Below are positions 1,678 through 30,965 of a DNA stretch of 53,730 nt, one piece after another. The stretch comes from Deltaproteobacteria bacterium. GTDB taxonomy: Bacteria; Desulfobacterota; Desulfarculia; Adiutricales; Adiutricaceae. The position numbers were made by a program, and so were the translations under genes. The stretch's first letter is position 1. Each line of letters begins with the position of its first letter. The stretch is from assembly GCA_031254895.1 (NCBI GenBank), contig JAIRTO010000142.1, forward strand, positions 1-53,730, read 5' to 3'. The notes beneath the pieces were generated by a model that saw only the letters and a program-made list of their open reading frames with translations, did no database searches and had not been told where the DNA came from.

Positions 1678-2596
1678 TTGGCTGCCTTTTTCAAGGCTTC
1701 AACCTATATGTGCGGTTGCGGTTGGCGCCCTCGGACAGTATTGTGCCTACATTTGTCAGCTCCTTCAAGTACACCCTCATTCGGCCGGCGCTAATGCCAA
1801 CGGCATCCGCTACATCGCCCGCAGAGCAGGACTCATGATCCGTCAGAAAAGCAATGATGGCTTGCTTGCGGGCTTCGCCTTTTTGCCCCTCCGCTTTATC
1901 GCTCGTTTTCATCGCTCGTTTTTTATCGCTCGTTTCCGCTTTATCGCTCGTTTTACGCAAAACAAGCGATAAAACCGTGCGATCAGGGTTGAACTGCTCC
2001 TCCAGTGCCGGCTCAGGCCACTTCATGTCTTTCCAGACGGCGAAGATTCCAGGCAGGCCGCTACCTGACCTCTCGCCAATCTCCACCAGGTTGAAGAGCT
2101 TGATGAGCGTCTGGTTGCGCGGGTCGGAGATGCCTCCGAGCACAGCCTCGTCAATGCTGATGCGCATGCCGCCGGGATTGGCGATGGTTATCTGGCCTGG
2201 GCGCCTATGAATGACTATGCCGCGGCGCCCATAGTGATTGGCGTGGATCAGGCAATTTGCGATGGCTTCCCTCAAAGCCTTGTGCACAGGAGTGTCGTCG
2301 ATGCGGGTGTCGCCCACCAACTTGAAAGGAGTCTTAATCTCCTGCGCGATGCGGTTGTAGACCCGGTAGTAGAAGTCATAGACGTTGCCGCTCCAATCGC
2401 CTGAGCTGGATATGATGCGATCCGTCCAGCGGGTGGTCTCGTCCCCATGCTCCTGATAGTCCAAGAAGTAGTTGGGGAACTCTTTGACTATCTCGTGCTC
2501 GTAGCCGAACATCAGGATGCCGGCCCCCGTAGGATGGAGCGTTCCGTCCTCGGCGCGGTCTACGCAGCCGAGCTTGAAGAGGAACTCCGCATCCCC
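1678..2596. repeat. tandem duplication, copy B
   Basis: Second copy of the duplicated segment. It forms the 3' half of the intact minus-strand gene (1691-3169). It differs from copy A by scattered base changes and by having only four short-repeat units. Confidence 0.85.
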
Positions 2597-3169
2597 AAGG
2601 CTCTCCCAGACGTGCTTGGGGCGGGCGCTGAAGAAGATAATGCGGTAGCGGCGCACCGTTTCGTAGTCGAACGCGTCAAGTCCGAGCCGCTCCAGCGCCC
2701 TTGTGTCCTGTGTTGTGGTAGCTTGGTCTGCAAACATAGCCCGCACCTCTTCCTCGGTGCAGTGGTAATCGCCCTCCCAATTGCGGCGGTATGAGCCTCT
2801 GATGGGGTTGTTGTTGATGTAGACCGGCTTGTCCCGGCGGTCGGCGCGTGGGATGTCGATTGCTACGATGTGCTTGCCTTCGATCTCCTCGATCCGGACG
2901 TGCCTGTCGGCGAGGATGTTGACGCTGACCTTTTGGCGGTTGTTGATGGTGTCCCAAAACTCCTTGACCAGTCTCTCGGGATCAGGCGCGCCGACTATGT
3001 TGAGAGCCTTGTCCTCCTGCTCCTCCGCGCCAAGCAGGATATAACCGCCCTGCGTGTTGGCGAAGGCGGAATAAGTTTCCCAAAGGCTCTTCGGCAGTCC
3101 GCCCGCAGCCCGCTTTGCCTCGATTCGATTGTCCTCCTTATATTTATTCAGTTCGTTTAAATTGAGCAT
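1691..3169 (-). CDS. AlbA_2 (Schlafen-type) DNA-binding domain / HATPase / winged-helix protein
   Basis: A 492-residue protein of the COG2865 type, thought to be an ATP-dependent transcription regulator or helicase-like factor. The N-terminal AlbA_2 domain is visible at about residues 10-130 (EDNRIEAKRA, FANTQGGYILLGAEE). The middle has the GHKL-type ATPase signature (ALREAIANCLIHANHYG, then IANPGG and GERSGSGLPGIF, about 300-390). After a TSDK-repeat linker the C-terminus is a winged helix (SAGDVADAVGISAGRM). I chose the ATG at 3169 because GGAGAT lies eight bases upstream and the AlbA_2 domain begins at once; a longer frame to 3313 adds a hydrophobic stretch unrelated to the family. The linker is encoded by a short tandem repeat (1898-1970), so repeat slippage could detach the winged helix. 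Such genes are common beside restriction and mobile elements; the target is unknown. Confidence 0.85.
   Translation of the reverse strand: MLNLNELNKYKEDNRIEAKRAAGGLPKSLWETYSAFANTQGGYILLGAEEQEDKALNIVGAPDPERLVKEFWDTINNRQKVSVNILADRHVRIEEIEGKHIVAIDIPRADRRDKPVYINNNPIRGSYRRNWEGDYHCTEEEVRAMFADQATTTQDTRALERLGLDAFDYETVRRYRIIFFSARPKHVWESLGDAEFLFKLGCVDRAEDGTLHPTGAGILMFGYEHEIVKEFPNYFLDYQEHGDETTRWTDRIISSSGDWSGNVYDFYYRVYNRIAQEIKTPFKLVGDTRIDDTPVHKALREAIANCLIHANHYGRRGIVIHRRPGQITIANPGGMRISIDEAVLGGISDPRNQTLIKLFNLVEIGERSGSGLPGIFAVWKDMKWPEPALEEQFNPDRTVLSLVLRKTSDKAETSDKKRAMKTSDKAEGQKGEARKQAIIAFLTDHESCSAGDVADAVGISAGRMRVYLKELTNVGTILSEGANRNRTYRLKP
1898..1970. repeat. short tandem repeat array in copy B
   Basis: Four units of the ATCGCTCG + T-rich motif. 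It ends in the same near-perfect inverted repeat as copy A, with one mismatch in the arms. In minus orientation it encodes the TSDK linker of the full-length protein and keeps the frame open. Confidence 0.85.
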
Positions 3170-3409
3170 ATTGTATCTCCTGTTGTTCCATACTGGCATA
3201 ATACCTGTCGGAACGCGCGACTTCAATGTCGCCTGGGGGCAAAACCAGGGAAAAATAAAGCCAAATGACATCAATGGACTCAAATATACCACAGTCCATA
3301 TATTGCGCGCCAACTAAAAAAGTCGATAGCGGCGATAATTTTCGCGGCTCTTCTTCCAATTCTAGGCGGCCTGTCTCGGGCGGTTTTTATGCTCCGGCAA
3401 AGGCGCCGG

Positions 3410-5608: not shown

Positions 5609-7255
5609 ATGACCTTCATGAAAGGCTTCATTTTCACATTGCGCCAAGCCGGAAGGTCAGGGGCGCCGCACCTCAAGCTTCTATTTTCCTCCATCGCGCC
5701 GACGGTCTTTCTTTTGGCTCTGTTTCTGGCCGTTCCCGTTTCGGTCAAAAGCCAGGAGACTCCGCTGGTCGGCGAGCAGGGCCAAGGGATCGATTCCTCT
5801 TCCGACGGCTATGCCGATTCGAACGGCCCAGTCGGCGCGGTCGAGTCGAACGGCCCGGTCGGCGCGGTCGACTCTAACGGCCAGGTCGGCGCGGTCGAGT
5901 CGAACGGCCAGGTCGGCAAAACCGAGCCAAGCGGTTGGGCGCTCGCGAATCTTTCTCCTCAAGCCTGGACCCTCATCGGCCTTTCGGCTCTTCTGGCCAT
6001 CGTCGCCGTCCTTTTCGCTTCTGGCTTGTCGGTCAGGAAACGGCTGACCGAACTTGCGGACGAGGAATCGCCCCCCATCGCTCCTCCCCTCCGCGAATCC
6101 CAGGCCAGGGAGGCTTCTTTGCCTTCGGCCATTTTTCCAGGCAGCTGGTTCGAAGGTCTGGATCAAGAGCGACTGGAAGATTTTTTCCGTCGAACCAGAC
6201 GTTCGGCGACGTCCGTTTTTTTCGAAGCTTTGGAGATCGACGACAAGGCCGGGGCTTCGCGAAGCTCGCCGACAGAGGCCAAGCTGACGGCGGCTGGGGA
6301 AAAAACGAACTATTTTTTGAATCAAGCCCTGAGCTCGGAGGCGTTCGTCGACCTCGCCTCCGGCGAGGTCGTTCTCTCCGTCTCGCAAAGGGCGCTTCTG
6401 AAGATTCATCTCGAAGCCCTCGTTCCTCCGCTGCGAACTCCCCGACCGCAAACTCTGACCGGCGAGGTCAGACCGGCCGTCTTGGCCGTCTTGGCGTCCG
6501 TCGGCGCCATAGCCGGAAATGTCCTTGGGGCCGGGCTGTTGGGCTGGCTGAAGCAACCCCCCGAAACTGGCGCTTTGCTCGGTTCGCTCGTCGGGGCGGC
6601 TTTGAGCGTCCGCCTGTCTCTGTTCCTGGCCCAGAACGAGCGGCTGCGCCGCCTTCTGCTGGCTTCGGTTGGCGGAATGGCTCTCCTGGACGTCTTGTCT
6701 TCTTTCTTCGCCGGGGCCATGGGGCCAATTTTCGCCGGGAGTTCGGCCTTTTCTCCGCTTAGGCGGCTTTTGTTTTACGGCGGGGCGATCGCCGCCTTGA
6801 TCCTGGTCAAAAGCCGGGAACTTTTCGACGTCGAGCTCTTCCGACGGCAGACGGACGAGGCCGTTGACGCGCGTCTCTCCATCTCTCTTCCCTTGGCCGT
6901 CGTGCTTATCCATCGGATCAGAAAAGGCGAAATCACTCAAAAAGGCGTTTATTTGAAGCCGTCAGAGGACGTCTCTCTGATTCAGGACGTCGCCGCCGTC
7001 GTGAAGAGACTTCGGGCCAAGGAGGGCCTGGAAGACGATCCCGTCTTCAGCGAGCTCTGCCGGAAGCTGAACAACGCCGGCTACGAGACGGACGGCCTCG
7101 CCTCCGCCGGGCGTCAGATCCTTTGGGACGAGGAAGCGGCCTTGAAATACGACAGCTTCGGGCTGGTTCGAAAGGGTCAGGCTCTGGCCGTGGAAGAGGA
7201 GCCGATCGTCAAAGACGGCCAGGTGGTCAAAAAAGGTCTCGCCGTCCCCAAATAG
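5609..7255 (+). CDS. polytopic membrane protein of unknown function, partner of the Hsp70-like ATPase
   Basis: About 548 residues from the ATG at 5609; an ATG at 5618 is equally possible and neither has a clear ribosome site. A hydrophobic segment at residues 23-44 acts as signal or anchor and is followed by a small-residue linker with a nine-residue repeat (SNGPVGAVE type, four copies, residues 71-104). A second membrane helix is at about 119-138, then a soluble domain (about 145-285), then a cluster of four likely membrane helices (about 289-312, 321-341, 347-372, 385-401). The C-terminal soluble region ends VRKGQAL...VKDGQVVKKG, a faint echo of the GrpE beta domain that I would not rely on. 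I do not recognise the family. The gene is 171 bases upstream of the Hsp70-like gene on the same strand, which suggests a functional pair. Confidence 0.7.
   Translation: MTFMKGFIFTLRQAGRSGAPHLKLLFSSIAPTVFLLALFLAVPVSVKSQETPLVGEQGQGIDSSSDGYADSNGPVGAVESNGPVGAVDSNGQVGAVESNGQVGKTEPSGWALANLSPQAWTLIGLSALLAIVAVLFASGLSVRKRLTELADEESPPIAPPLRESQAREASLPSAIFPGSWFEGLDQERLEDFFRRTRRSATSVFFEALEIDDKAGASRSSPTEAKLTAAGEKTNYFLNQALSSEAFVDLASGEVVLSVSQRALLKIHLEALVPPLRTPRPQTLTGEVRPAVLAVLASVGAIAGNVLGAGLLGWLKQPPETGALLGSLVGAALSVRLSLFLAQNERLRRLLLASVGGMALLDVLSSFFAGAMGPIFAGSSAFSPLRRLLFYGGAIAALILVKSRELFDVELFRRQTDEAVDARLSISLPLAVVLIHRIRKGEITQKGVYLKPSEDVSLIQDVAAVVKRLRAKEGLEDDPVFSELCRKLNNAGYETDGLASAGRQILWDEEAALKYDSFGLVRKGQALAVEEEPIVKDGQVVKKGLAVPK
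5811..5922 (+). repeat. 27-base in-frame coding repeat
   Basis: Four tandem copies of a 27-base unit encode SNG(P/Q)VGAV(E/D) in the linker between the first two membrane segments. The unit is a multiple of three, so copy number can change without breaking the frame. Confidence 0.85.
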
Positions 7256-7426
7256 TTTCGCCTGTCGTCGTCGAAGGAACGTCCCCCCCCGCCCCGAGGG
7301 CGTTCCGCCGGACTGGCCAGAAACGCTTTTTTTTAGGAGCTTTTTCCCGATTCTCCGCCCCCTCCCGGGACGCGTCGGCTAATTCTTGTCAAAAACGGCC
7401 TCATTTCGAGGCGGAAGAGAAGGGCG

Positions 7427-9445
7427 ATGGACGATCGTTCGAAAGACAAACTTGCCGGTTCCAAGGCCGACGTCATCGGAGTGGACTTTGGGACCACCAA
7501 CACTTATCTGACGATCTGTCCCTACGGAACCAAAAACAAGTTTCCTTTGCACTTGAGCGGACGTTCTCCGGCCATAGACACGGCCGTTTTGTACGCGGAC
7601 AAGGCCGGAGAAGAGGAGAAGGCTCTTTTCCCTCTGATCGGCGAAAGAGCCACCGCGACCTACGGTCAAGCCGACGCGGAAACGAAGGAAAGGCTCGGCT
7701 ACCGCTATTACGCCAATTTCAAGCCGGAGATCGCCGGACGAAAGCAAGCCCGGGAGTGCGCCGTCGATTTTTTCAAAGCCGTCAAAAGAGAAGCCGCGGA
7801 AGTGGGCGTTTTGCTGAACCCGGGAAACGACTTGATCATCATCGGGGCGCCCAGCGAAGCTTCTCCTTCTTTCCGTTCGACCTTGCAGGATTTGGCGGTC
7901 GAGGCGGGGCTTGGCCAAGCGGAGGTGGTTGACGAGCCCAAAGGCGTTCTTCTGACCGATTTGGGCTACAACCGCTTCCCCCTGGCCGACATTTTGGACG
8001 GATATCTGATCGTGGACTTCGGCGGCGGCACCTGCGACTTCGCCCTCATGCGTCGAGGCGAGGTGGCGGCCAGCTGGGGAGACATGGAGTTGGGAGGCCG
8101 ACTCTTCGACGATCTGTTCTACCAGTGGTTTTTGGAGCAGAATCCGGAAGCGGAAAAAGAGCTCGCCAGTCAAAAGCGGGAGTTCTACGTCTGGTCCTAC
8201 TGTTGTCGGCGTCTGAAAGAGGATTTCTCGGAGACGGTCGCTCGCGACCCGAAAGCTTCCGTCTCGGCGGAGGTGGGACGCTTCGGGATAGTCAGAAATT
8301 TGACCGTCGACGGCTTTCTGCAGAGAGCGGCCCATTACTCGCCTTCCCGGGCCTTCGTCGAATTTGGCTCCGCCGTCGGCTCCCCCGGTTTGGAAAGGCT
8401 CAAAAGCGGGCCGGTCGATCTGCTTCAATGGTTTGAGGATCTTCTTCTGGAAGGCGCCAAGGGGACGAAAGTCAGAGCCGTTTCCCTCTCCGGAGGAAGC
8501 TCCAAATGGTTTTTCGTCAAAGAGACGTGCGCCCGACTTCTCAATCTGGAAGGCGGAGCCATATTGGGCAGTCCCAATCCCTTCGGGGCCATATCCGAAG
8601 GCTTGGCCATTCTGCCGGCCGTGAAAATGGAATTGGAGACGGCGAAAAGTCGGATGACGCGGGATAAAGACGATTTCGTCAAGTCCCGGCTCATGCCGGA
8701 GGCGGAAAAAAACCTGTCCGAGTTCGCTCGCGGACTGGCCGGCCGGATCACTTCGGAATTTTACGACGACAAGGTCGTCCCCATTTTGACCGAAGCCGTC
8801 GAGACGGGATTCAAGATAAGCGAGACGGAAAAAAAGATTCTCGACGTCATCGACGACTATCAGCCCATTTTGGCGAAACTGGCGGACACGGAGTTGAGCG
8901 GGCGGATTGGAGCCGTCAACGCCGTTTTGCAGTCTCAGATCCAGGCCTGGCTGGACGCCTTCGGCCTGCGCTTGGAAGGGAGATTGCCTTCGGACGCCAA
9001 AAGTCTGGGACTGGTCGAAATAGACCGGCTTCTGGTCGGCGAGCATTTGACGAAACCCTTGCTCAGACTGGTCAACGGTCTGGTGGCGGCCTGGACGACC
9101 GTCATTGCGGCCAGCCTCTGCGGCGGAAGCGGTTTGGCTCTTCTGGCGGCCGGGCCTTTAGGGTTGATCATGGGCGCGTTAGGGGGGATAGGTCTGAGTC
9201 AGGTGGGACTGAAGCTTGGACGGGAAAAGTTGGAGAAGATGGCCCGAGAACAAAACGTGCCGGCCCTGCTGGCCAAAACCGTCATCACCGAGAAGAACCG
9301 AAGAAAAACCCGCGAAGATTTTTCTTCGGATCTGATCGGCAAGATAGAATCGTCATACAGAGAAGCGCTGAACGATTTGCCTGGCGAACTGGATAAGGTC
9401 ATTATCCGGGAAATTAACCAGTTGGGAATAATCAACGTGTTTTAG
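7427..9445 (+). CDS. Hsp70/actin-fold ATPase with C-terminal membrane hairpin
   Basis: A 672-residue protein whose first ~390 residues are an Hsp70-family nucleotide-binding domain: phosphate-1 loop GVDFGTTNTY at about 18-27, phosphate-2 IVDFGGGTCDF at about 195-205, and adenosine motif VSLSGGSSKW at about 351. The typical DnaK beta-sandwich substrate domain is not evident. Instead there is a long, mostly helical region and a glycine/alanine-rich hydrophobic hairpin at about 555-590 (LCGGSGLALLAAGPLGLIMG...), then a charged helical tail. This suggests a membrane-attached ATPase rather than a soluble chaperone. ATG at 7427 has AGAAGGG about five bases upstream. The upstream gene on the same strand encodes a polytopic membrane protein, probably its partner. 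No DnaJ or GrpE gene is near. The function is unknown; assignment to the Hsp70 superfamily is firm. Confidence 0.85.
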   Translation: MDDRSKDKLAGSKADVIGVDFGTTNTYLTICPYGTKNKFPLHLSGRSPAIDTAVLYADKAGEEEKALFPLIGERATATYGQADAETKERLGYRYYANFKPEIAGRKQARECAVDFFKAVKREAAEVGVLLNPGNDLIIIGAPSEASPSFRSTLQDLAVEAGLGQAEVVDEPKGVLLTDLGYNRFPLADILDGYLIVDFGGGTCDFALMRRGEVAASWGDMELGGRLFDDLFYQWFLEQNPEAEKELASQKREFYVWSYCCRRLKEDFSETVARDPKASVSAEVGRFGIVRNLTVDGFLQRAAHYSPSRAFVEFGSAVGSPGLERLKSGPVDLLQWFEDLLLEGAKGTKVRAVSLSGGSSKWFFVKETCARLLNLEGGAILGSPNPFGAISEGLAILPAVKMELETAKSRMTRDKDDFVKSRLMPEAEKNLSEFARGLAGRITSEFYDDKVVPILTEAVETGFKISETEKKILDVIDDYQPILAKLADTELSGRIGAVNAVLQSQIQAWLDAFGLRLEGRLPSDAKSLGLVEIDRLLVGEHLTKPLLRLVNGLVAAWTTVIAASLCGGSGLALLAAGPLGLIMGALGGIGLSQVGLKLGREKLEKMAREQNVPALLAKTVITEKNRRKTREDFSSDLIGKIESSYREALNDLPGELDKVIIREINQLGIINVF

Positions 9446-27915: not shown

Positions 27916-28167
27916 ACGGTTTTGCGGCTGGCCGACGTCAATTGTCCGCTCGAAGACCTCGCCAGGGCCGGCCGTCTGCACGTCCGCGTTTACGGCCATA
28001 CCGACGACGGTTTCGTCATTAAAGGAAAAGGCGTCTTTAGCGACAGGGAATCCGAGATATAGCGACGCGGAAATTTTGTGGCCGGCGCCGACAAGGCCTG
28101 TCAGGCGGCTCTAGTTTTGGGCGATTTGAACGCCGCGCCGGCGGCAATGGATGGAGGAAAAAAATGA
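27916..28167 (+). pseudogene. degraded reading frame with internal stop
   Basis: Eighty-three codons read like protein on both sides of one in-frame TAG (28060-28062): LARAGRLHVRVYGHTDDG before it, RRGNFVAGADKACQAALVLG after it. The second part recalls the GVxADKAC-type motif of DUF371 proteins, but the match is weak and by eye only. No clear start. I read it as a decaying gene. Confidence 0.35.
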
Positions 28168-28300
28168 TGAGAAGCTCAGCCCGAGAGAGACTCAGGTCTG
28201 GCGAAGAGGAGAATTCGCTCCGGGAAAACTTGTCAGCGCGGAGTTTTTCTTTGAAAACTTTTTCGCGGTATGGAAAAATTATCTAACTGCGCCATGATAG
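28168..28300. other. spacer entering the AT-rich island
   Basis: No gene seen. Base composition drops sharply in G+C from about 28250 onward. Confidence 0.4.
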
Positions 28301-28405
28301 TTAAGGGCTGATTTTGACGTCGAGGCTAATTTTGCCGTTAGGATTTTCAATTGATCTGTATGCGGCATTTTCAGCTCCCAAAATAGCAATTCTTTCATGA
28401 TAATA
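28301..28405 (-). pseudogene. C-terminal fragment of a second Rpn-family nuclease gene
   Basis: The minus strand reads ERIAILGAENAAYRS followed by a short tail and a TAA at 28301-28303. This matches the C-terminus of the intact gene at 28816-29715 (ERIAILEAENAALKS). The bases match closely too (28361-28397 against about 28839-28876). Everything upstream of this tail has been lost. It shows that a second copy, or a longer relative, once lay here. Confidence 0.7.
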
Positions 28406-28815
28406 ATCATTATTATTATTATTTAGCTTGTCCACTCATGTAATTCGTTGTATTTCACTTACTATTATTTAATTTGTTTAAAGAATTGCAAATATATCTA
28501 ATTAAATATAAAGTTTTTCTAAATATGAGTATAGTAATTCTGTATTGAGAGTAGTTAATTTTTTTAAAAAAGCAGTAATTTATGTAATCATATGATTTGG
28601 AAAATATTATAATATTGTTAATGGAAAGTCTTGTTTATAAAGTATAGTTAATACAGTAATAAATTATCAAAATATTAATTTTTATGGGCATAGCTGAATA
28701 AAATAGCCATGACGCATATAAGTGGTACGACGAAATAATATAGGACAAGATAAATAGCATTATTTGAGATGCAAAAAGTCTTGATGGGGCGAGACAAGTT
28801 TAACTTAAAAGAAAT
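28406..28815. other. very AT-rich spacer
   Basis: No gene seen. It separates the nuclease fragment from the intact gene. Confidence 0.5.
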
Positions 28816-29715
28816 CTAAGATTTTTCCTTAGATTTTAATGCAGCATTTTCAGCTTCCAAGATAGCAATTCTTTCAGCGTAATTGTTTATTAGCTTCTCG
28901 TTTTCTTCAGCAGCAGCAACAGCTTGCCTTAGTTTTTCGTTTACTTCAGCAACAGCAGCAGCTTGCTTTACGTCATCATTAGCAAGAGCCTGCAGGTTCA
29001 TATCACTAATTCGCTTTCTTAAAGCGTAAAATTTAGTGTAAAGACTTTCTTCTTCACGTGCAAAAGTATTTAAATTATCGCTTACCATTCTTAACACCTC
29101 ATTATGTTTTATAATATCTGAGATTATAGATGAATATTTTGATGAATTTAAATATTTAATAAATAAACTAGCTTTATCAACCTCGGTTAGTTCAGAATAA
29201 TCTTTTGACGTTAAAGGAGCAAGTTTTGAAAGTTCAACAATTCCAATGTTAAGATGTTCAAGACAACGATTAGGATGAGGGAAATAAAGTTGTGCTGTAT
29301 TCCAATATTCTTGGCAATTAGCAAATACAGTAAAATCGCCAAACCATAAATTATAAACATTTGGTAGTGTTAGGGAATCATATTTGCATGATTTTGATCC
29401 TCTTACATTTTCTACAGGAGTAGCATACAGATTTGTAATATATAGAACAGCTCTATTAAAAAGTTGCATATGATTATTTGCGATATTATCACCTTTCATG
29501 TGATTTGCTTGCATTTCAATTACTATTTTTTCTCCTGTGCGAAGAGTTGCAAAAACGTCAAATCTAACCGAAAGCTTGTCATGAAACGAGTATAAAAAAT
29601 TTGGATCTTTTATAGCTATGTCAGGATGTAACCCTTTATCAATTGTTTTAGTAATTTCTTCGAGAAATGAATTATAATCTTTGTCCACCAAAAGATTTAT
29701 TTCTGAAACATTCAA
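28816..29715 (-). CDS. Rpn-family (PD-(D/E)XK) recombination-promoting nuclease/putative transposase
   Basis: 299 residues. Residues about 45-75 carry the nuclease core: VRFDVFATLRTGEKIVIEMQ, the D...ExQ form of the PD-(D/E)XK active site used by Rpn/PDDEXK_2 proteins. The middle has the usual YFPHPNRCLEHLNIGIVELSK-like region. The C-terminus is a coiled coil with a near repeat (AVAEVNEKLRQAVAAAEENE). The usual family N-terminus (a DFVFKKIFG-like segment) is missing; the protein begins at MNVSEINLLVDKDYNSFLEE, which may be a shortened or divergent start. The gene is strikingly AT-rich compared with its neighbours, suggesting recent acquisition. Family members promote recombination in trans and multiply in genomes. 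A tail fragment of another copy lies downstream. Confidence 0.85.
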   Translation of the reverse strand: MNVSEINLLVDKDYNSFLEEITKTIDKGLHPDIAIKDPNFLYSFHDKLSVRFDVFATLRTGEKIVIEMQANHMKGDNIANNHMQLFNRAVLYITNLYATPVENVRGSKSCKYDSLTLPNVYNLWFGDFTVFANCQEYWNTAQLYFPHPNRCLEHLNIGIVELSKLAPLTSKDYSELTEVDKASLFIKYLNSSKYSSIISDIIKHNEVLRMVSDNLNTFAREEESLYTKFYALRKRISDMNLQALANDDVKQAAAVAEVNEKLRQAVAAAEENEKLINNYAERIAILEAENAALKSKEKS

Positions 29716-30965
29716 ATAAGGGAAAAATGCTTAAACTAGATATTTTAAAATTTAAGGTTGTTACCATATAGTACCATCAATTTATAAGAAAAATCTGAAC
29801 ATAAGGATAGTAATTCTGTCATAGTTATTCGAATTTCAGATTAAATTTATTTGCTAAGTAAATTCTTATTTAACATAATTAGCAATATTTTTGTTTTTTT
29901 TATATATACTGTATGGTGTTTTTGTTGGATTAAAAGACATTAAAATAGCATTCGGCATAAGGCGAGTTTTCTAGTAGCCAAACAGCCATAACAGATTTTG
30001 AGGCGGCAATTTAATTTCTTTTCGGCCTGTTCCGACAGCCGAAGCGCTTAGTATATTTGGCCTTAAAAGCAACTCCGCAATAGACAGGACATTTCAAACT
30101 TTCCGCTTCGACGGAGAGCGCTCTTCGCGGAGCTTCCCTTTTTTTGAGTATATCACAACAACGGCCAAGCATAAATATAGCCAGAGTCCTCTAACCTTTG
30201 ACTATTGAGCTTGGCTCTCTGTTTGGCCGCATCAGACCTGGATTCCGCCTCCGCCGAAGGTGTCATGATTTCCTTGCGGCCATGTCTGGGCGACGGCTAT
30301 CCGAAACTAGTTCAGGCAGGATGACGAGGGAATGGGCGGAAGAATTGGCTGAAGGCGCGGCCATCTGCCCAGCCGTTTGAATGTCCGCGAGAAATCGTCT
30401 CGCCGCCGAAGGAGACGACGCCTTAGTGAAGTCCCAGAGCGGGGGAACCAAACCTTGGCTGTTAATGGCCGTTCGAACTCCGAAATGGCGCAGGATCTGA
30501 GCAACAGCCCTTCGTCTCTAGAGAAATAGATCTGAGTGGGGGGGACCGACGTTTTGCCATGGATCGTTGGAGCCGGACAAGGGGGAACCAGAAGAGCCGG
30601 AATCAGGAGAGCCGGGATCAGAAGAACCAGAATCAGGGGGAGGCAGAAAACCTGCAGTTTGGGTGGCCAAAAATCAGTCGCAGAGCTTTCAATGCGGAAT
30701 ATGCGAAAGGAATTTTGAAAATTGAGTTTTTTTTAAAGATGAAATATGCGCCTGACTTTTATTCTGGCGACGCGACTGAAAACCCGCCAAGATGTTTTGG
30801 GAAGACCGCTCTATTTACGGACGGAAGCGATTCCGCGAATGAGGAAATCATGGGCGCTGGCCCAAGACGGCTGGCGCGTCGAGAGCGGCTTCGGCTGGCT
30901 GAAGGAGGCGAAGCTGCTGACGTTTTGGCCAACTCCGTTGGACGGACAAAATGATTTGAATGCGT

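Follow-up and report, generated by a model that had tools for sequence, protein, structure and literature searches.

The locus considered here lies in the window, a stretch of 53,730 nucleotides (contig JAIRTO010000142.1 of GenBank assembly GCA_031254895.1) from a bacterium whose assembly comprises 376 contigs and 3.5 Mb and whose nearest named relatives are Deltaproteobacteria metagenome-assembled genomes (MAGs). Two open reading frames (ORFs) on the + strand, here termed P1 and P2, encode a polytopic membrane protein and a predicted Hsp70-like ATPase with a helical membrane tail, respectively (Table 1). Both were found where an earlier reading of the DNA letters, hereafter the original prediction, had placed a two-gene unit at 5609-9445, and the genes next to them in the window encode a transposase and an RRM protein.

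Table 1. Features of the P1-P2 locus (positions in the window; aa, amino acids; bp, base pairs; pLDDT, predicted local distance difference test; TRF, Tandem Repeats Finder).
Feature	Positions	Strand	Basis and remarks
P1 gene	5609..7255	+	ORF, 548 aa; polytopic membrane protein with putative GrpE-like C-terminus
27-bp tandem repeat in P1 (SNGxVGAVx)	5815..5917	+	TRF; between two hydrophobic segments, in a loop predicted to be periplasmic
P1 soluble helical domain (aa 163-285)	6095..6463	+	pLDDT mostly >90 from aa 181; conserved across homologues
P1 glycine-rich hydrophobic hairpin (aa 289-342)	6473..6634	+	Hydropathy, model; present in the homologues aligned
P1 putative GrpE-like region (aa 402-548)	6812..7252	+	Foldseek, VIA-align, hhalign; one helix and two short ones, then a beta part at the C-terminus
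Intergenic gap P1/P2	7256..7426	+	171 bp
P2 gene	7427..9445	+	ORF, 672 aa; Hsp70-like ATPase (predicted) with helical membrane tail
P2 Hsp70-type nucleotide-binding domain (aa 12-402)	7460..8632	+	Structure match, conserved motifs, hhalign
P2 long helices (aa 388-511)	8588..8959	+	AlphaFold model; occupy the position of linker and substrate-binding domain
P2 hydrophobic hairpin (aa 537-608)	9035..9250	+	Hydropathy, model, hhalign; resembles bacterial dynamin paddle
P2 C-terminal helix (aa 622-664)	9290..9418	+	AlphaFold model

P1 and P2 form a conserved unit

Relatives of P2 were found in the window's own family and at 40 further loci, from Planctomycetota, Chromatiaceae, Acetobacteraceae (Rhodopila), Chlamydiae, Synergistaceae, CSSED10-310 and other deltaproteobacterial/myxococcal MAGs. 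Adjacency was counted on 38 of these 40 loci, L040 and L066 being left out as both begin inside P2, and a P1 homologue lies directly upstream of P2 on the same strand at 36 of the 38; the two ORFs, as mechanically called, overlap at 16 of these 36 loci, four of them by 4 bp. At the two exceptions (L045 and L047), P1 is located elsewhere in the genome, one copy having stops in its match. When Planctomycetota, Chromatiaceae and Acetobacteraceae were searched with P1 first, P2 adjoined every clear, intact match that was not cut by a contig end. Weak P1 matches (E ~1e-4, e.g. L149-L153) also turned up in Chromatiaceae and Planctomycetota; these were discarded, as they are membrane proteins unrelated to P1 with no adjoining P2. 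A mirror-tree comparison of P1 and P2 over 38 pairs gave r = 0.94, the maximum among permutations being 0.18. The adjacency count had been set beforehand as the test of the link between the two genes, which was originally drawn from order, strand and spacing; together with the P1-first searches and the mirror-tree, it bears that link out, and P1-P2 is a real conserved unit.

The unit is patchily distributed and appears to spread horizontally. Within the window's own family, 14 of the 24 relatives sampled carry it, and of the 198 genomes sampled across its phylum no other does; the counts are approximately 5 of 294 for Planctomycetota and 2 of 249 for Acetobacteraceae. A search of PLSDB plasmids gave no match to P2. 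Intracytoplasmic membranes are formed by the phototrophic hosts named from Chromatiaceae and Rhodopila, and a link of P1-P2 with such membranes is kept as a lead and no more, given that only ~10 intact copies were found among the 146 genomes of the Chromatiaceae family sample. The P2 tree is at odds with the species phylogeny, Chromatiaceae standing beside two planctomycete-type sequences and a sequence from Planctomycetia (L046) beside Desulfobacterota-type sequences, which fits transfer of P1-P2 as a unit. Broken copies were also detected (G617, G566 and L077); in the last of these, from Ca. Thiodictyon intracellulare (L077:2237-4138), P1 and P2 are both split into pieces, consistent with decay in a symbiont.

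A patchy distribution, a discordant tree and broken copies are also features expected of a conflict (anti-phage) system, in which an ATPase switch and a membrane effector would be gained and lost horizontally, sometimes with dynamins, and conflict systems containing GTPases, HSP70 and GrpE have been predicted (Kaur et al. 2020, PMC7159879). Such a role appears rather improbable for P1-P2, as PADLOC gives no match for either protein, the P1-P2 core does not change and a variable effector was not seen, and no DO-GTPase/GAP1-type genes were named among the distant neighbours scanned with Pfam, a scan that included no search aimed at GAP1. Furthermore, the same small downstream gene (cluster c4) is kept at three loci in the genus, and the locus therefore looks stable there.

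P2: an Hsp70-type domain followed by a helical tail

The N-terminal part of P2 is an Hsp70-type nucleotide-binding domain. P2 scores 25.8 bits against Pfam HSP70 (PF00012; cut-off 20.6), and in its AlphaFold model (mean pLDDT 84, built with 44 sequences), aa 12-402 match Hsp70 nucleotide-binding domains with Z ~30-32 and a root-mean-square deviation (rmsd) of ~3 Å over ~325 residues. The motifs DFGTT, DEP, DFGGGTCD, LGGR and GGSS are near-invariant among homologues, and hhalign matched P2 to DnaK from the same genome at 98%; no NCBIfam cut-off was reached by P1 or P2. P2 thus possesses an actin-like nucleotide-binding domain, complete with the phosphate and adenosine motifs, as expected of Hsp70 members and as had been recognized from its motifs in the original prediction, and the near-invariant motifs and the match to DnaK suggest that it is likely to be an active ATPase. 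Weak MreB matches, which 42 of the 44 P2 homologues give in addition, would suit a cytoskeletal device, in which P2 polymerises in an actin-like manner at the membrane, P1 serves as a scaffold and the likeness of P1 to GrpE (see below), for which the evidence is indirect, is coincidental. However, the structure match of P2 is to Hsp70 over ~325 residues, and the GrpE likeness of P1 emerged both from a blind structure search and from a profile, so that a cytoskeletal device is rather improbable.

Past aa 402, the P2 model consists of helices only (388-460, 464-511, 537-575, 577-608 and 622-664 when the helix spanning the boundary is included), the first two of ~70 and ~48 residues, followed by the hydrophobic hairpin and, at the end, one more long helix. 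Neither a DnaK-type hydrophobic linker nor a beta-sandwich substrate-binding domain was present in the alignment or the model; P2 is without a substrate-binding domain and, as anticipated, has a helical region and a hydrophobic hairpin in its place. In the hairpin, the pattern GGxGxALLxxGPxGLxxG is similar to the paddle found in bacterial dynamins from related genomes. The hairpin was matched by hhalign to paddle-bearing dynamins at 91% (E 1e-6, 27 columns) and to seven dynamins with a score of 40.9; local shuffling of the columns gave 15.6 ± 2.5 and never reached that score (0/100). The P2 tail gave no match to the Rhodopila GTPases alone, which comprise only 4-5 near-identical sequences. Compared with the paddle at the tip of a dynamin stalk, the hairpin is paddle-like but the stretch is short and model confidence is low there, part of it being modelled at pLDDT below 50. 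Taken together, models and profiles support the presence of a dynamin-paddle-like hairpin in P2.

P1: membrane segments and a C-terminal domain

Hydropathy analysis of P1 identified hydrophobic segments near aa 24-42, 122-140, 290-308, 322-340 and 349-375, and the AlphaFold model (mean pLDDT 75) was built with 42 sequences. These segments and a tandem repeat (a 9-aa unit in four copies; 3.8 copies with 90% matches in TRF) agree with the repeat-bearing polytopic protein foreseen in the original prediction. The repeat is modelled at low pLDDT and is not conserved in the alignment of homologues, and it is a local decoration. The glycine-rich hairpin of P1 has profile similarity to the P2 hairpin. 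Searched as a single sequence against Pfam, NCBIfam and PDB sequences, P1 gave no match. Weak VIA-align matches of aa 190-444 to 5owv (Z 6.8) and to the dynamin-family protein IniA (6j73, Z 6.7) were set aside as too weak, since Z below 8 for helical proteins may reflect a common arrangement only.

The P1 model ends in helices 408-438, 453-469 and 478-489 followed by short strands up to the C-terminus. In a blind Foldseek search of this model against 350,542 PDB chains, GrpE proteins from T. thermophilus, Geobacillus and human (GrpEL1) occupied ranks 1, 3 and 6. VIA-align placed P1 402-548 on residues 38-193 of GrpE 1dkg_B (Z 6.3, 132 residues, co-terminal) and matched the P1 C-terminus to GrpE 8gb3_E with Z 6.4. 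In hhalign, P1 homologues without an insertion before the beta part gave P 5e-4 against GrpE, with a score of 29.9 (shuffles 11.9 ± 2.4) that was reached by 0/200 global and 0/100 local shuffles; a profile of the P1 C-terminus against PDB sequences returned weak unrelated matches, GrpE not among them. The model, Foldseek, VIA-align and the compact-subset profile agree on a helical stalk and a C-terminal beta wing, though at a Z of ~6 and an rmsd of ~14 Å, and provide independent but individually modest support for a GrpE-like domain at the C-terminus of P1. It follows that a candidate exchange factor is present at the locus. The soluble part of P1 had been thought to fit no family, which does not hold for aa 402-548; likewise, the reported absence of an adjacent grpE stands for annotated families, although P1 itself appears to end in a GrpE-like domain. 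The positive-inside rule, applied to the order of the hydrophobic segments, would place this end of P1 on the cytoplasmic side together with P2.

The window's genome also encodes a canonical GrpE, besides a second GrpE-Hsp70 pair (L105, contig C10:1-6304) in which a 583-aa GrpE-domain protein, with a long run of ~33-aa repeats ahead of the GrpE domain, precedes an Hsp70 of 652 aa. Similar extra GrpE matches are seen in several of the family's genomes.

A putative membrane machine and its relation to known systems

Besides P1 and P2, no neighbour gene is constant across loci. In Rhodopila-type genomes, P1-P2 adjoins two divergent dynamin-family GTPases, and a planctomycete (G239, locus L165) carries a second P1-P2 pair in the same-strand order dynamin-dynamin-P1-P2 with short gaps; P1 and P2 themselves gave no match to the Dynamin_N (PF00350) GTPase domain. 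In a planctomycete MAG (RUG11551), a second P2-like protein is encoded behind P1-P2 (L064:10272-12575, also L067:10234-11499), the one in L064 carrying a ribosomal L7/L12 C-terminal domain (E 3e-27). At two deltaproteobacterial/myxococcal loci (L069:3264-6416 and L076:3148-4560), an SNF2 helicase gene lies upstream on the opposite strand. Elsewhere in the window, tandem near-duplicate SLFN_AlbA_2-type proteins are encoded on the - strand at 991-1593 and 1691-3313, the first being shorter, and the region 28000-30000 has a G+C content of 0.32 (~0.55 in its surroundings) and holds a 299-aa ORF at 28816-29715 on the - strand. An Rfam scan of the window gave no match.

It is proposed, with a probability of about one half, that P1-P2 is an Hsp70-type ATPase embedded in the membrane, kept cycling by a GrpE-like domain and most likely remodelling or tethering membranes. 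The two proteins would form an ATPase machine at the inner membrane, on its cytoplasmic face, where the Hsp70-type domain of P2 would bind and hydrolyse ATP and a helical stalk with a hairpin inserting into the membrane would take the place of a peptide-binding domain. P1, fixed in the membrane, would use its GrpE-like domain to open the nucleotide cleft of P2 for ADP to be swapped for ATP, thereby confining P2 cycling to sites where P1 is present. The ATP cycle would move or oligomerise the membrane stalk of P2, the most likely outcome being membrane remodelling or tethering, in some bacteria together with a dynamin-family GTPase pair. A role of P1 as exchange factor is likely; we infer the exchange reaction itself, the topology of the pair and its remodelling role. 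A more specific version, that of a horizontally mobile ATP-driven membrane remodeller combining an Hsp70 motor whose substrate-binding domain has given way to a dynamin-type membrane stalk, a GrpE-type factor in P1 and, in some lineages, a dynamin pair, is put forward tentatively and is rather doubtful.

Several observations weigh against this proposal. The Foldseek E-values of the GrpE matches are ~0.5, and the VIA-align superposition, with an rmsd of ~14 Å, holds for pieces only, which indicates that these are arranged differently in P1 and GrpE. Compared as a profile, the full set of P1 C-termini shows weak similarity to GrpE (P 0.014-0.016; ~1/300 shuffles), and the strong score is limited to the insertion-free subset, picked after the first comparison. 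Pfam GrpE (PF01025) is not among the matches listed for the window P1 or among the 25 families listed for 26 P1 homologues, and the P1 end is for this reason termed GrpE-like and not GrpE. The paddle likeness of P2 is short and may reflect convergence of membrane hairpins, and no dynamin was recognised adjoining P1-P2 at most loci, the window included.

The same domains could also serve a quality-control or insertion chaperone whose clients would be membrane proteins and not lipids, bound by the P2 tail or by P1. Hsp70-type and GrpE-like domains are the core of a chaperone cycle and both proteins have hydrophobic hairpins, but P2 is without the linker and substrate-binding domain of Hsp70 chaperones, and genes for a J-domain protein, a protease or an insertase were not seen to recur next to P1-P2; a chaperone is thus considered unlikely. 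If the membrane-machine proposal is true, P1-P2 would be a form of the Hsp70 machine that is membrane-bound, not described before and possibly membrane-reshaping. Soluble GrpE is the single exchange-factor type described for bacteria (PMC4753570), and the Hsp70s that it serves act on polypeptides, so that in P1-P2 the Hsp70 cycle would be reused as a membrane motor. The pair is an experimentally small two-gene system in Thiocystis, Allochromatium, Lamprocystis and Rhodopila, which are cultured and not pathogenic.

Within the libraries searched, neither P1 nor P2 falls in a characterised system, and no description of the pair was found in a literature search of open-licence papers. Both fall short of full membership in Hsp70 chaperones, GrpE or dynamins. 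With DnaK-GrpE, they share the nucleotide-binding domain of P2 and, apparently, the GrpE-like helix-plus-beta region of P1, whereas P2 departs in its tail, P1 is polytopic and missed by the Pfam GrpE model, and no recurrent DnaJ was seen. Bacterial dynamin-like pairs (Cj-DLP1/2, IniA, LeoABC) appear to resemble P1-P2 in having stalk helices with a hydrophobic paddle-like hairpin, and dynamin-family pairs adjoin P1-P2 in two lineages, but the P1-P2 motor is an Hsp70-type ATPase and not a GTPase. The predicted GAP1-N2 DO-GTPase conflict systems, found mainly in actinobacteria and firmicutes, also combine GTPases, HSP70 and GrpE, with a subset in which HSP70 lacks the peptide-binding domain (Kaur et al. 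2020, PMC7159879); their GAP1 and FNIII partners were not recognised among the P1-P2 neighbours scanned. Like P1 as proposed here, yeast Snl1 is a membrane-anchored Hsp70 exchange factor (PMC3962485), although it is of the BAG type and a general Hsp70 partner with no dedicated operon, whereas P1 is multi-span, appears GrpE-like and is encoded beside its own ATPase.

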